Under the pieces are notes generated by a model, which was not told where the DNA came from, made no database searches, and was given only the letters and a program-made list of their open reading frames with translations. From a virus: a stretch of DNA of 25,018 nt. Location of the stretch: positions 1-25,018 of the IMG/VR virus record IMGVR_UViG_3300017772_000114, one strand, 5' to 3'. A program made the translations under genes and the position numbers. Each line of letters opens with the position of its first letter. Within the stretch, counting starts at the first letter, position 1. Positions 1 to 8,312 of the stretch are shown here, one piece after another.

Positions 1-103
1 AGCCATACTAGTTTACCGTCAGAAACTACGGGACTGGCCTGCAAAAAACGAAGACGGTGAATACATCAATGGCTTTCCAGACACAAGACCAGAGGTGGGC
101 TAA
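1..103 (+). CDS. C-terminal end of a tail-assembly-chaperone-like protein (partial)
   Basis: The frame starting at base 2 is open from the window edge to a TAA at 101-103; the 5' part lies outside. The visible tail contains VYRQKLRDWPAKN and FPDTRPEVG, which lines up with the end of the product at 1337-1633 (AYRTELRDWPAT, FPATKPTLGS). The Y-R-x-x-L-R-D/N-x-P signature is that of the phage tail assembly chaperone family (Phage_tail_APC type), small proteins encoded next to the fibre or tail proteins they help fold. The stop overlaps the next start as TAATG, as at 19978-19982. That it is a real gene end is well supported by the paralogy; the chaperone role is family-based inference. Confidence 0.7.
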   Translation, partial: AILVYRQKLRDWPAKNEDGEYINGFPDTRPEVG

Positions 104-3458: not shown

Positions 3459-3483
3459 AGACTTTTGTCCACCTTAGTACAAC
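3458..3483 (+). promoter_or_regulatory. Phage RNA polymerase promoter P2
   Basis: TAGACTTTTGTCCACCTT followed by AGTACAAC: the core is identical to P1, with a changed downstream part. It begins at the last T of the preceding terminator and would transcribe the control region and early genes. Confidence 0.8.
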
Positions 3484-3486
3484 CTA

Positions 3487-3515
3487 TTGCCACACGACGG
3501 GGCAATTGATATTAT
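3487..3515 (+). promoter_or_regulatory. Host sigma-70 promoter with extended -10
   Basis: TTGCCA (-35, 3487-3492), a 17-base spacer, then TATTAT (-10, 3510-3515). TG at 3507-3508 gives an extended -10 (TGA-TATTAT). Each hexamer matches the consensus at 5 of 6 positions with ideal spacing. It lies upstream of all early genes including the phage RNA polymerase, the expected place for the promoter that starts infection before the phage polymerase exists. Predicted start near 3522. Confidence 0.7.
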
Positions 3516-3640
3516 GTACATGTAGTCAGTTGATGTGATTACGGGGTGGCTCCCCACGGCAGTACAGATGACAGCCCCTTGGCCCACTTTGTGGCACCGA
3601 CCAAGGTAAAGACCCCTAAGTCCAGGATGACTACGAAGGG
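3516..3640 (+). other. Structured non-coding leader of the early transcript
   Basis: No convincing ORF. Visible hairpins are GGGG/CCCC (3543-3546 with 3552-3555, loop TGGCT) and CCTTGG/CCAAGG (3577-3582 with 3601-3606) enclosing a short CCAC/GTGG stem. It lies just downstream of the host promoter and P2, so it would be the 5' part of both transcripts. Role unknown. Confidence 0.4.
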
Positions 3641-3689
3641 CCTGCATTAGTTCTTACATCAGCAATATCCATTGCTTGACTAATGCAGG
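3641..3689 (+). repeat. 11-bp perfect inverted repeat with nested inner hairpin
   Basis: CCTGCATTAGT (3641-3651) pairs perfectly with ACTAATGCAGG (3679-3689). Inside, AGCAAT (3661-3666) pairs with ATTGCT (3671-3676) around a 4-base loop. The outer arm extends into GCAGGAAG (3685-3692), which is itself repeated inverted at 3759-3766 beyond the tRNA-like segment. It has no T-tract. Next to int and a tRNA fragment, it may hold integrase or excisionase binding sites. Confidence 0.6.
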
Positions 3690-3706: not shown

Positions 3707-3759
3707 CTACGACCAATCGATTATGAGTCGACTGCTCTAACCAACTGAGCTATGGGCCC
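3707..3759 (-). other. attP: Probable attP: 5' part of a CAU-anticodon tRNA gene
   Basis: Read on the - strand from 3759: acceptor 5' strand GGGCCCA, TA, a D-arm with GCTC/GAGC around AGTTGGTTA, a 5-bp anticodon stem GTCGA/TCGAT around CTCATAA (anticodon CAT at 3725-3723), then TGGTCGTAG. This resembles bacterial tRNA-Ile2 (lysidine type; E. coli ileX shares the AGCAG, CTCATAA and TTGGTCG features) or elongator tRNA-Met. After GTAG the expected T-arm and acceptor 3' strand are missing; only an imperfect GGCCC occurs near 3639. It is thus a fragment, not a working tRNA gene. It lies 0.6 kb upstream of the integrase, where temperate phages carry an attP core matching a host tRNA. Inverted repeats GCAGGAAG/CTTCCTGC (3685-3692, 3759-3766) flank it. 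Confidence 0.65.
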
Positions 3760-3821
3760 TTCCTGCGGCAATGGATTCTACACATGTAAATCCACGAAAT
3801 ACAGATGTAAACACCCACAGA

Positions 3822-3844
3822 GCTGCCTTTTGGTGGCTTTTTTT
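3822..3844 (+). terminator. Intrinsic terminator in the early leader
   Basis: GCTGCC (3822-3827) pairs with GGTGGC (3832-3837) with two G-T wobbles around TTTT, followed by a 7-base T-run. It lies between the early promoters and the first early ORF at 3870, so it could attenuate expression of the integrase-side genes. Confidence 0.6.
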
Positions 3845-3869: not shown

Positions 3870-4328
3870 ATGAACACTACTAAATTTGAAACTAACGCTG
3901 ATATCCAAGCCCGCCACGAAGAATTTGTTGCTGAGAACCAGGCAGTAATAGATGCCTCTAGCCTGACCAGGGAGATGGCTAAAGAGCTGAGCACTGAGTA
4001 TATGTCTCTAACGGTTGAACAGGAGACTGAAGAGATGAAAACATTCATGGAGGGTGGAGAGTCCCTAATCCTAAGCTCTCTGGGAGTTAGCAATGCTTAC
4101 CACGCTTTAGAAAATCTGGGTAATGCAGCAAGTTATTTCATCGGAACTGCCAGGTACTTAATTATTGACAAAGGCGTCAAGCTGCTAAGCCCTGCAGGAT
4201 TCCACCATTCTGACAATGTCTGGGCACTCAGCAAAGAAAGCCAGGTACAGATACTGTCTGACCGTTTACCCAAGCACCTGTCTGGTCTTGTCGCATACGA
4301 CCTTCACAAGTGTGTCGTTGACTTTTAA
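3870..4328 (+). CDS. Early protein of unknown function
   Basis: 152 aa. I place the start at 3870, not the upstream in-frame ATG at 3771, because GAGGG precedes it in the leader TTTGAGGGAATCATT, which is repeated exactly before the integrase start. Also, the upstream extension would run through the terminator stem and T-run. The product is acidic and probably helical (residues about 10-60 rich in E, A and S/T), with a hydrophobic middle (SLILSSLGVSNAYHALENLG, then TARYLIIDKGVKLLS) and no recognised domain. It is the first gene after the early promoters and is followed by a strong terminator. By position it could be a host-takeover or lysogeny-control factor, but the sequence itself does not show this. 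Confidence 0.6.
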   Translation: MNTTKFETNADIQARHEEFVAENQAVIDASSLTREMAKELSTEYMSLTVEQETEEMKTFMEGGESLILSSLGVSNAYHALENLGNAASYFIGTARYLIIDKGVKLLSPAGFHHSDNVWALSKESQVQILSDRLPKHLSGLVAYDLHKCVVDF

Positions 4329-4374: not shown

Positions 4375-5220
4375 ATGGAAACTTTAACTACCTTTATGGA
4401 TGCCCACGCGCATCGACTCTGGCACGACAAGCACCTACGTGACTGCCAGTTCATGGTCCAACGCCTGGCTAACTACCAGGACAACGCAGATAAGCCCCTG
4501 GCTGACTTTACGGTCAGGGACATCCTGGCATTCCAGGACCACCTGGTTCTGATGGGGCTTTGCGACAACACCGTCAACCGTTACCTAGCTTGCTTCAGCT
4601 GCCTATTCAACCTGGCAGTGGAACATGAAGTTATTGATAGGAAGCCGCGCATGAAGTTTCTGAAGGTTAGGAGCTCACGCCCCAGGTTCTTCACTGACAA
4701 AGAGATTGATGACCTGGTCAACTTTCTGGATAACAGCAGTCAGCCCTGGATGTCTCACTTTGTTGTCTTGGGCGTTAACACAGGTATGCGCCTGGGCGAG
4801 ATTCTCGGCATCAACAATTTCAACGGAAAGACCCACGGCTACATAAGTGCCTGTGGCACCTACGTCACTTTGACCGACACTAAGAATGGCGACCAGCGCA
4901 TCGTACCGCTGAACCAGGCGGCCAGGGACGCACTTCAAGCTCTGGATATGCACCCTGCTGGCCCGTATACGCACCGAAAGTTCTACGACACCTGGGCAGA
5001 AGCTCGTGACGAGTTGGCAAGGGAAGACAAGCATTATGTGTTTCATGTACTCCGTCACACCTGTGCTACCAAGTTAGCGATGGAGCATAACGTCGACTCT
5101 ATTACCCTGGGCAAGATACTTGGACACCGCTCCATAGCCACCACTCAGAAGTACGTCCACACCAAGCCTGACGCGCTTAGTGCAATTATGTGCAAACTCG
5201 AAAAAAGAGGGGCTGCATAG
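4375..5220 (+). CDS. int: Tyrosine recombinase (phage integrase)
   Basis: 281 aa with GAGGG 9 bases upstream. Residues about 1-95 form an N-terminal SAM-like core-binding domain (ending near CDNTVNRYLACFSCLFNLAV). Residues about 105-275 form the catalytic domain: R139 (TGMRLGEIL), K170 (TKNGDQRIVPL beta-hairpin), H224 and R227 (HVLRHTCATKL), H251 (GHRSIATT) and the nucleophile Y260 (KYVHTK), so the full R-K-H-R-H-Y set is present. It would join attP to a host site, very probably a tRNA gene matching the fragment at 3707-3759. There is no long arm-binding N-terminus, as in small phage integrases. Placement directly upstream of the RNA polymerase region is known from integrase-bearing T7-like cyanophages and pelagiphages. 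No excisionase is recognised nearby. Confidence 0.95.
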   Translation: METLTTFMDAHAHRLWHDKHLRDCQFMVQRLANYQDNADKPLADFTVRDILAFQDHLVLMGLCDNTVNRYLACFSCLFNLAVEHEVIDRKPRMKFLKVRSSRPRFFTDKEIDDLVNFLDNSSQPWMSHFVVLGVNTGMRLGEILGINNFNGKTHGYISACGTYVTLTDTKNGDQRIVPLNQAARDALQALDMHPAGPYTHRKFYDTWAEARDELAREDKHYVFHVLRHTCATKLAMEHNVDSITLGKILGHRSIATTQKYVHTKPDALSAIMCKLEKRGAA

Positions 5221-5604: not shown

Positions 5605-8094
5605 ATGACGCTTAGTACTAATGAACTACTGGACCTAGAGATAAGAAGAGAGGAAGAGTTTTTTTCCAAAGGCCACCAAAGATTTAACGAAAGGCTTGAA
5701 AAAAACAACCGCCCATCAACTCAGAACAACCCCCAGTCTTTAATCACTGATGCATTGCCAAAGGTAGCAGCTGGCATACGTGCAGCACTTAAGTCTGAGA
5801 CCGACAAAGCGACTGGTCGTCCTTCGATATGGCTTGACGATTTACAGGACCTTGACGCAGATATCCTGGCATACATAGGTCTGAATGCCTGCATGGATAG
5901 CACTGTGTCTCATGGTAAAAAGACTTCACTGCTTGCAAAAATTGGGCACCGAGTTGAGCTTGAAGCTTGGGCTCAGGGTCTTAAGAAACACGATAAAACA
6001 CTGTTTAGCAGGCTCACTAAATATGTCGAAAAAGAACACGCTGGCCTCAAGCAGCGTGAGACAGCTGCACGTTCAATCGCAGCTAAGTCGCAATACAGTG
6101 TGAAAGAGTGGATGCAGGACAGACGTATCAAAGTGGCTTCACCTATCCTATCAGCCGTTCTTGAGCACTCAGGTATCTTTGAAACCTGGGAAAAGTTCAA
6201 TCGCAACGGCACCGACAAACGCATCGGACTTACTTTTGCTGCTTCAAATGCACTAGCCAATATGGACTATGAAGCTGCTTGGCAGGAACCTATGTTAGCT
6301 CCTATGATTGTCGCCCCCAAACCCTGGACCGCTTTCAACACGGGGTGCTACTTGGACGATGCAACAGCCGCTCAGGTGCCCCTGGTGAGAAGCGCAAGCA
6401 AGGCGCAGCGTAAGGCCATCAATTGGCAGCTTGCAAAAGGTCTTCCAGATTATGTCGAAGCCATCAATGCCATCCAGGCAACTCCCCTAAAAATTAATCA
6501 TTACGTACTCGAAGCTGTCGAACGCTGCTGGAATAACGCTGAAGTCTTCGGTAAGTTCCCCAGAGCAACTCAGATAGAGTTTCCAGACAAACCTGAGGTC
6601 TTTGATGATTTAACCAGTGAAGAGCAGCAGATTTACGTCAAGTCAGTGAAAGAAGTACGTGAAAAGAATCGTGAGGTGAACGCTGCCAGGATTCTTATGC
6701 TGCAGGACCTGGGCACGGCAAAAGAACTAGCGCAGTTTGAAGAGTTCTGGCTACCTTTTAACTTTGACTTCCGTGGCCGTGTTTACCCTGTACCTCACTT
6801 TAGCTACCACCGTGATGACCACATCAAAGCAATGTTTACGCTTAAACGTGGGAAGCCAATGGATGATGCTGGCGCTTTTTGGTTGGCAGTGCATTTGGCC
6901 AATACAGGTGACTTCGGTAAAATTTCCAAGCAGTCTTTGGAGTCTAGGGTTGCCTGGGTTGAAGAAAACAAAAGCCAAATCTATGACGTCGGGCGGGATA
7001 GTGCTGCGACTTTTGCGTTCTGGTCGACCGCTGACAAGCCCTTTCAGTTTCTAGCTGCCTGCCACGAGTTTGCCAACTACATGGACTATGGGTCTGATTA
7101 TGTCTGCAGCCTTCCTCCCCAACTTGATGGCACTAACAGTGGTGTTCAGCATTACTCCGCAGCGAGTTTAGATGAACAAGACGGTGCTTTGGTTAATCTG
7201 GTTCCAAGTGAAAAGCCGCAGGACGTTTACAAGACGGTTGCTGATGTTGTTAACACCAGGTTGGCCCAGGACACTGGCGAAGTGGCTGAATGTTGGAAAG
7301 CTTTTGAGGTTGGACGCAGCACCGTAAAACGGAATGTGATGACCTATGGATATTCTAGTGGCAAGTACGGTTTTGCCGACCAGCTCATGGATGACGTTAT
7401 GGGACCACTCGCTGACGGAGTGCTGCGTAAGGAGCAACACACGCATCCGTTTGGGGCCGACAAGGCCAGCCATAGATTGCATGCCAAGTACTTGGCTAAC
7501 CTTAATTATGAGGCAGTGTGCGAGGTAATATCGAGTGCTGCCCAGGGTATGGCATTTTTCCAAAAAGTTGCAGGAGCCTTGGCGCACGAAGGTAAGGCAC
7601 TGCGTTTTGACAACCCTGTAGGTTTCCCTGTGATTCAGCAGTATAACCATTGGGACGTCAAGAAGGTCAAGATATTCCTCTATGACAGAGTGACCGATGC
7701 GCCTAAGCGAGAGCAGGTGTCAGTTCGGGTACGCGCTTCAAGCAGAGTAGATAAGAAGAAAGCGAAGGCGGCAGTGTCGCCAAACATCATCCACTCTATG
7801 GATTCAGCTCACCTCCTACTTACCGTACTCACCGCGAAACAAAATGGCGTGAAGGATTTCTTTTTAATCCATGATAGCTTCGGCACAGTGCCATCCGACA
7901 CTGACACGATGTATCACTCAGTGAGACATTCTTTCGTCGAGTTGTATAAGGATTACTGTCTATACGACGATTTGAAAACGCAGGCAGGCAAGCAGCTTTC
8001 ATATGACGGCTTGAAAAAACTTGATGCCACAATCCCCGCAAAAGGTAATTTAAACCTGGCTGCCATTTTGGAGTCAGAATATTGTTTTAGTTAA
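5605..8094 (+). CDS. DNA-directed RNA polymerase, single-subunit T7 type
   Basis: 829 aa (T7 gp1: 883). The catalytic set is complete: D508 in QLDGTNSGVQHYSA (T7 D537), K575 and Y583 in VKRNVMTYGYSSGKYGF (T7 K631 and Y639), and H756-D757 in FFLIHDSFGT (T7 H811-D812). FDFRGRVYPVPHF (about 388-400) matches the T7 DxRGRVY block and SPNIIHSMDSAHL (about 727-739) the C-terminal conserved block. It transcribes phage genes from its own promoters, of which five copies (P1-P5) are recognised here. Initial expression should come from the host promoter near 3.5 kb; P3 then gives positive feedback. GTGAGGG precedes the ATG. No lysozyme of the T7 amidase type, which restrains T7 RNA polymerase, is present in the window. 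Confidence 0.97.
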   Translation: MTLSTNELLDLEIRREEEFFSKGHQRFNERLEKNNRPSTQNNPQSLITDALPKVAAGIRAALKSETDKATGRPSIWLDDLQDLDADILAYIGLNACMDSTVSHGKKTSLLAKIGHRVELEAWAQGLKKHDKTLFSRLTKYVEKEHAGLKQRETAARSIAAKSQYSVKEWMQDRRIKVASPILSAVLEHSGIFETWEKFNRNGTDKRIGLTFAASNALANMDYEAAWQEPMLAPMIVAPKPWTAFNTGCYLDDATAAQVPLVRSASKAQRKAINWQLAKGLPDYVEAINAIQATPLKINHYVLEAVERCWNNAEVFGKFPRATQIEFPDKPEVFDDLTSEEQQIYVKSVKEVREKNREVNAARILMLQDLGTAKELAQFEEFWLPFNFDFRGRVYPVPHFSYHRDDHIKAMFTLKRGKPMDDAGAFWLAVHLANTGDFGKISKQSLESRVAWVEENKSQIYDVGRDSAATFAFWSTADKPFQFLAACHEFANYMDYGSDYVCSLPPQLDGTNSGVQHYSAASLDEQDGALVNLVPSEKPQDVYKTVADVVNTRLAQDTGEVAECWKAFEVGRSTVKRNVMTYGYSSGKYGFADQLMDDVMGPLADGVLRKEQHTHPFGADKASHRLHAKYLANLNYEAVCEVISSAAQGMAFFQKVAGALAHEGKALRFDNPVGFPVIQQYNHWDVKKVKIFLYDRVTDAPKREQVSVRVRASSRVDKKKAKAAVSPNIIHSMDSAHLLLTVLTAKQNGVKDFFLIHDSFGTVPSDTDTMYHSVRHSFVELYKDYCLYDDLKTQAGKQLSYDGLKKLDATIPAKGNLNLAAILESEYCFS

Positions 8095-8105: not shown

Positions 8106-8312
8106 ATGTCAACAATCGAAAGTCTCCACAAGGAGAATATCGACTTTATTAGGAAGCGTCGCAACCGTCAGCGAGTAGCTGATTTAGCTGGAGTTCACGT
8201 TAACACCATAAGTGAACTTATTCTAAACAAACGCTTAAGTCCCAACCTCAAAACTGTCATAGCTATTGAGAAAGCAGTCGCCACCATTAAGCGCAATTTA
8301 AACATTCGTTAA
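8106..8312 (+). CDS. Small helix-turn-helix DNA-binding protein
   Basis: 68 aa, AAAGGAG 6 bases before the ATG, 11 bases after the RNA polymerase stop, so co-transcribed with it. RQRVADLAGVHVNTISELI (about 24-42) is a good helix-turn-helix of the Cro/XRE style: ADLAG as helix 2 start, VHVNTIS turn and recognition helix. The C-terminal LKTVIAIEKAVATIKRN fits the last helices of that fold. It is a single minimal domain. It could regulate host or phage promoters, and it is the best repressor-like candidate in the window. No operator repeat was identified. Confidence 0.75.
   Translation: MSTIESLHKENIDFIRKRRNRQRVADLAGVHVNTISELILNKRLSPNLKTVIAIEKAVATIKRNLNIR

Follow-up and report, generated by a model that had tools for sequence, protein, structure and literature searches.

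The 5' half of a host tRNA-Ile2(CAU) gene as the probable attachment site of a marine T7-like phage

Elements that integrate into tRNA genes overwhelmingly supply the 3' half of the gene and leave the host promoter in place. A preliminary description of the DNA studied here proposed that a short segment near an integrase gene is an attP candidate carrying the 5' part of a CAU tRNA instead. This raises the question of whether the segment is an attachment site at all and, if it is, how the host tRNA gene would be restored and transcribed. The window, meaning the whole stretch analysed, is one linear IMG/VR virus record of 25,018 bp that may be incomplete.

Pfam and PHROG profile matches identify an RNA polymerase of the single-subunit phage type, in a genome that is T7-like (Table 1), and, judged by its genes, the window phage is a marine T7-like (Autographiviridae-like) phage. 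Five copies of a GACTTTTGTCCACCTT-like repeat are found in the window versus 0.03 expected, and these are likely promoters for the phage's own RNA polymerase. The tyrosine integrase is apparently intact; its catalytic residues R139, K170, H224, R227, H251 and Y260 are invariant in an alignment of 11 integrases. The ORF between attP and int matched nothing in PHROG or Pfam. Directly after the RNA polymerase gene, the plus strand (8106-8312) encodes a 68-aa helix-turn-helix protein (PF01381), possibly a repressor or excisionase.

Table 1. Features of the window (positions in the window) and the part of the tRNA carried by related phages (nt, tRNA nucleotides).
Feature	Position	Strand	Remarks
Phage-RNAP promoter-like repeat, GACTTTTGTCCACCTT-like	3093, 3460 (3460..3478), 5562, 8325, 15535	+	copy upstream of attP is that at 3460
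Sigma70-like promoter TTGCCA-17-TATTAT	3487..3515	+	directed toward attP; 10/12 consensus matches; TG before -10
Conserved structured RNA element	3543..3689	+	adjoins attP on the int-distal side
Inverted-repeat arm, distal, TCCATTGC	3668..3675	+	candidate arm-type site
attP identity block, tRNA-Ile2(CAU) nt 1-53	3707..3759	-	nt n = window 3760-n
Anticodon arm, nt 28-44, putative crossover region	3716..3732	-	loop CTCATAA, nt 33-39 = 3727-3721
Inverted-repeat arm, int side, GCAATGGA	3768..3775	+	candidate arm-type site
Candidate phage promoter CTGTAT-18-TAGAAT	3775..3804	-	15 nt before nt 1
Intrinsic terminator	3819..3840	+	between attP and int
ORF, 152 aa from ATG 3870	3870..4328	+	between attP and int; occurs in 5 near relatives
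Tyrosine integrase (int), 281 aa	4375..5220	+	PF00589 5.7e-21; PF13102 3.3e-9; PHROG integrase 4.8e-43
T7-like RNA polymerase	5605-8094		PHROG 414 7e-198; PF00940 9.1e-89
Window's own clade, L058/L070	nt 1-53		
L063	nt 1-55		
L115, L125, L126	nt 1-48		
L060, L064, L071, others	nt 1-77		full
L106	nt 25-77		3' part
L109-L113	nt 21-77		3' part
L054	nt 17-77		3' part
L118	nt 29-77		3' part
L119	nt 9-77		3' part
L120/L122	nt 17-77		3' part
L057	nt 4-77		tRNA orientation reversed relative to the rest

Read on the minus strand, positions 3759-3707 are GGGCCCATAGCTCAGTTGGTTAGAGCAGTCGACTCATAATCGATTGGTCGTAG. The exact 53-mer is present in 46 bacterial contigs of the GTDB collection (53/53 identity), and in all 46 it forms nt 1-53 of a complete 77-nt CAT tRNA that continues GTTCAAGTCCTACTGGGCCCACCA. 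These contigs are mostly from marine Halieaceae, Luminiphilus, SAR92 and Porticoccaceae; two are labeled Halothiobacillus or Halothiobacillaceae and one Alteromonadaceae. ARAGORN names every CAT tRNA 'Met', and we assign this one provisionally to tRNA-Ile2 because it resembles Ile2 of E. coli. The minus strand thus does hold the acceptor 5' strand, D-arm and anticodon arm of a CAU tRNA, as first described, and where a shared run of at least about 20 bases with a bacterial tRNA had been proposed as a check, a complete tRNA sharing 53 identical bases was found. That identity, repeated in 46 contigs, rules out a chance tRNA-like sequence. Phage tRNA genes returned by a blastn search reflected generic tRNA similarity and were uninformative. 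The match points to marine Halieaceae and SAR92-type bacteria as the probable hosts of this uncultured phage.

The block is identical to a host tRNA and reaches one end of the gene, as identity starts at mature nt 1, upstream of which phage and host sequences are unrelated. It ends within the T stem, on its 5' strand; beyond nt 53 the phage reads AGTCGAGACAGG... versus GTTCAAGTCCTA... in the host. The 53 nt span the 5' acceptor strand, D-arm, anticodon arm, variable loop and four of the five bases of the T stem 5' strand. No complete tRNA was detected in the window with ARAGORN, and the Rfam tRNA model matches 3759-3702 at 27.3 bits, short of the 29-bit gathering score, and the T-arm is missing from the match. 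The T-arm had been described as absent, which agrees with the Rfam match, but the four T stem bases included in the block are a short stretch of it.

To place the segment among relatives, the integrase was used as a query, yielding 11 viral loci on its own and 80 with an alignment of the 11 integrases. Among loci with an integrase at least about 53% identical and an att region present, tRNA-Ile2 sequence lies upstream of int in all but L127, where the 5' block corresponds to a CAT tRNA that differs slightly. Integrases of the related phages using this tRNA (the Ile2 group) are 54-67% identical. The block is kept in ten or more related phage contigs with diverged flanks. Among the 5'-type relatives L050-L070 it has 0-1 difference while the flanks differ, and the one difference, a C at nt 16, also occurs as a real allele in hosts (20/110 genomes of one family and 3/140 of another). 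Inverted TCCATTGC repeats flank the core in the window (p 0.016) and reach p <= 0.06 in 13 of the 16 att sites tested, the window among them; they resemble arm-type sites and are candidates for that role.

The block matches a host tRNA exactly, is conserved in relatives, lies between inverted repeats and is 616 bp from the start (4375) of the integrase gene, in agreement with the 0.6 kb given initially; segment 3707-3759 is therefore almost certainly attP. It is very unlikely that the 5' half is the remnant of a captured host tRNA gene with no attachment function, any integration taking place elsewhere. A remnant would not be expected to stay identical in relatives with integrases down to about 54% identity, to vary at nt 16 exactly as host alleles do, to be flanked by inverted repeats, or to have complementary 3' or full tRNA-Ile2 sequences in the same place beside int in other phages, even if no integrated prophage was seen and T7-like marine phages may carry integrases without stable lysogeny.

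Related phages differ in the part of the tRNA that they carry (Table 1), and we joined phage and host sequences in silico in the anticodon loop. For the 5'-types an intact tRNA arises only from phage 5' plus host 3' sequence, for the 3'-types only from host 5' plus phage 3' sequence, and for the full-type phages and L057 both ways. The expectation that this phage would replace the 5' part and promoter side of the tRNA therefore holds in silico, and the window phage would swap the 5' half, leaving the tRNA under a phage-borne promoter. By these in-silico junctions it fits the 5'-tDNA-fragment class, in which the element supplies the 5' part and the 5' fragment is displaced. Since the anticodon arm (about nt 28-44) is the part common to 5'-, 3'- and full-type attPs, our best guess for the crossover is the 7-nt anticodon loop rather than another segment.

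From these comparisons of sequence we are confident that the segment at 3707-3759 serves this T7-like marine phage as its attP, and that the tyrosine integrase acts on the host tRNA-Ile2(CAU) gene with recombination in the anticodon arm. On the phage, the 5' half of the tRNA is oriented with its 5' end pointing toward int. On integration the old 5' half and the host promoter would become a displaced fragment at the int-distal end, while at the int-proximal end a chimeric tRNA of identical sequence would form from the phage 5' part and the host 3' part. Transcription of this tRNA would then depend on a promoter located within the prophage. We infer the anticodon-loop crossover, transcription from a phage promoter and the occurrence of integration itself.

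A complete 77-nt tRNA-Ile2 with phage sequence on both sides is found at the att position of L060 (2113-2189), L064 (6085-6161), L071 (1588-1664) and L072 (941-1017). Such a tRNA could serve either junction or be expressed. These four phages would fit tRNA-dependent lysogeny, where the host tRNA is disrupted on integration and a complete tRNA of the same isotype, encoded by the phage, takes its place in trans. For the window phage that is extremely improbable: its record, linear and perhaps incomplete, holds no complete tRNA, its core is 53 nt as against about 10 bp, and the junction restores the tRNA in silico, unlike in the definition of that lysogeny (PMC10865867).

The 5'-types also share an orientation, with the tRNA always on the strand opposite int and its 5' end toward int. 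Counted as integrase clusters at 80% identity, five 5'-types and four 3'-types have the tRNA on the opposite strand, and none and ten, respectively, on the same strand (Fisher p 0.011, related phages not being independent). Mapped on the integrase tree, the three states (5', 3' and full) require at least three changes, 5'-types lying on either side of a 3'-type clade. The deciding branches have only 92-94% support (unstarred), so the 5' type may have a single origin.

L118 (2422-2470) and L119 (3221-3289) have integrases identical in the aligned region and share their outer flanks. The tRNA identity reaches nt 9 in L119 and only nt 29 in L118, as though a segment of the att region had been swapped with a host tRNA. 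L134 and L138 have a tRNA-Asn 5' block resembling another 5'-type, and a search for a host with an exact 40-mer of this block found none. They are a tentative further 5'-type; like the 3'-type assignments outside the Ile2 group, they rest on tRNA-like motifs with no matched hosts.

If the phage supplies the 5' half, a promoter would be expected before it. Good sigma70-like sites precede the 5' half in L115, L116, L125, L126 and L127, among them TTGATT-18-TAAACT, TTGTCA-17-TAAACT and TTGAAC-16-TAAACT, ending 12-21 nt before nt 1 (shuffle p 0.003-0.04). The best site of the window clade, CTGTAT-18-TAGAAT, scores no better than shuffles (p about 0.16-0.26), and in relatives the -10 hexamer is kept as TAGAAT or TAAAAT. 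Promoter replacement is thus supported by sequence for the family, with the window's own site weak by matrix score. Since the flank of one 3'-type, L111, likewise reaches p 0.03, the contrast between 5'- and 3'-types is suggestive but unclean. Full-type relatives carry the whole tRNA without an evident promoter; a phage promoter is therefore no general feature.

On its int-distal side attP adjoins a structured RNA in which 13 pairs are changed on both sides in 10 relatives, a number reached by 0/500 shuffles and compared with 2-6 in slid controls. A covariance model built from eight sequences matches beside attP in phages outside the training set, including full-type and 3'-type phages, the reversed L057 and the tRNA-Phe-type L130. 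The element is present in most related phages, whichever part of the tRNA they have; the model has no match in L115, L116, L125 or L126. The element corresponds to no Rfam family. Along the plus strand the order is the repeat at 3460, the promoter at 3487-3515, the structured RNA, attP and the terminator at 3819-3840; by eye, relatives have hexamers similar to those of this promoter. A link between the structured RNA and integration is suggested by position alone.

This arrangement could also mean that the segment works as RNA, a plus-strand transcript whose antisense tRNA 5' half targets host tRNA-Ile2. The structured RNA on that strand, the promoters on its 5' side and the terminator past attP do span the segment. 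The same structured RNA, however, lies beside attPs with a 3' half, a whole tRNA, a reversed one (L057) or a different one (L130), so the antisense part is not constant, and we regard an antisense function as very unlikely.

The preliminary description suggested looking for prophages at this tRNA with matching attL and attR. None of the window type was found among GTDB contigs with the exact 53-mer, IMG/VR contigs with the core and about 970 distinct bacterial genomes searched with an integrase query. A lone 5' fragment was present in 0/46 genome contigs with the exact 53-mer, and no window-type junction among the IMG/VR contigs with the core. No close integrase was found in 44 genomes with the tRNA, where relatives are 24-38% identical, in 140 Halieaceae (a search without a positive control), in 112 SAR92-family genomes or in an order sample of 391 genomes. 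Queries with the L126 integrase in a class sample of 369 and for a T7-like RNA polymerase in the 140 Halieaceae, both without a positive control, likewise gave no close match and no polymerase, respectively. Candidate prophages from the Halieaceae, SAR92, order and class sets came down to two moderately close relatives (39-42% identity), neither established as 5' type.

As some of the searches lacked a positive control, the missing prophage is weak evidence. Moreover, integration without stable lysogeny is described for T7-like cyanophages that have int and attP (PMC8776855), so on that account a missing prophage decides nothing. By analogy, lysogeny may be transient in the window phage too.

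Two arrangements at the host tRNA were seen in the course of these searches. L019, a Luminiphilus contig, has an intact tRNA-Ile2 at about 636-712 and a second 3' fragment at 5202, about 4.5 kb downstream, an arrangement that suggests a 3'-type element at the same tRNA. L183 (G191:C13, SAR92 family) starts exactly at tRNA-Ile2 nt 1 and downstream is the same as L184 (G191:C16), which shows the upstream sequence. Two upstream versions in the population are possible, but a single base difference would give the same picture, and the pair carries no weight in the argument.

Taken together, we slightly favor a broader reading in which one integrase family at one tRNA gene, in closely related marine T7-like phages, has switched between supplying the 5' half, the 3' half and both, with the crossover still in the anticodon loop and a promoter gained where the 5' half is supplied. 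Under this reading phages with the full tRNA are a plausible intermediate, and the transcription unit of the structured RNA spans attP. With related integrases, a single tRNA target and all three forms (5', 3' and full), this one family allows promoter capture, orientation and crossover position to be set side by side. Natural test cases bearing on the rarity of the 5' solution, and on the way elements pass from one solution to another, are few.

A 5'-type att is already known as a minority class. Islander lists a 5' fragment in 159/3919 islands (PMC4383910), islands with a 5' tDNA fragment are also reported by Williams 2002 as cited in PMC8371274, and a review of archaea describes pTN3-like elements with 5'-half att sites and element promoters, seldom seen in bacteria (PMC8371274). 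Like the window phage, pTN3-like elements have the tRNA 5' half as att, and their restored tRNA uses the element promoter (PMC8371274). Their att lies inside the integrase gene (suicidal integrase), whereas the window attP is outside int and no gene is split. Similar to the window phage, P-SSP7 and S-TIP37, from the T7-like cyanophages and pelagiphages, are marine and have a tyrosine integrase and an attP identical to part of a host tRNA; their target is tRNA-Leu (PMC8776855, PMC3861242), in contrast to the 5' half of tRNA-Ile2. The phages with tRNA-dependent lysogeny (PMC10865867) also have a tyrosine integrase acting at a tRNA gene and a complete tRNA as in the full-type relatives, unlike the window phage, whose core rebuilds the tRNA.

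Among open-access papers we found no report of a 5'-type attP in T7-like phages and no description of 5', 3' and full forms of one tRNA within one integrase family. The Islander 5'-fragment islands resemble the window phage in mode, with a tyrosine integrase, the element's 5' tRNA part and a displaced old 5' end. They are integrated islands mapped in genomes, whereas the window is a T7-like phage for which no lysogen was found. Unlike those islands, the window phage has relatives with similar integrases that use the 3' half or the whole of the same tRNA, and, judged by the open-access papers, what is new here is that a single integrase family uses the same tRNA in several modes.
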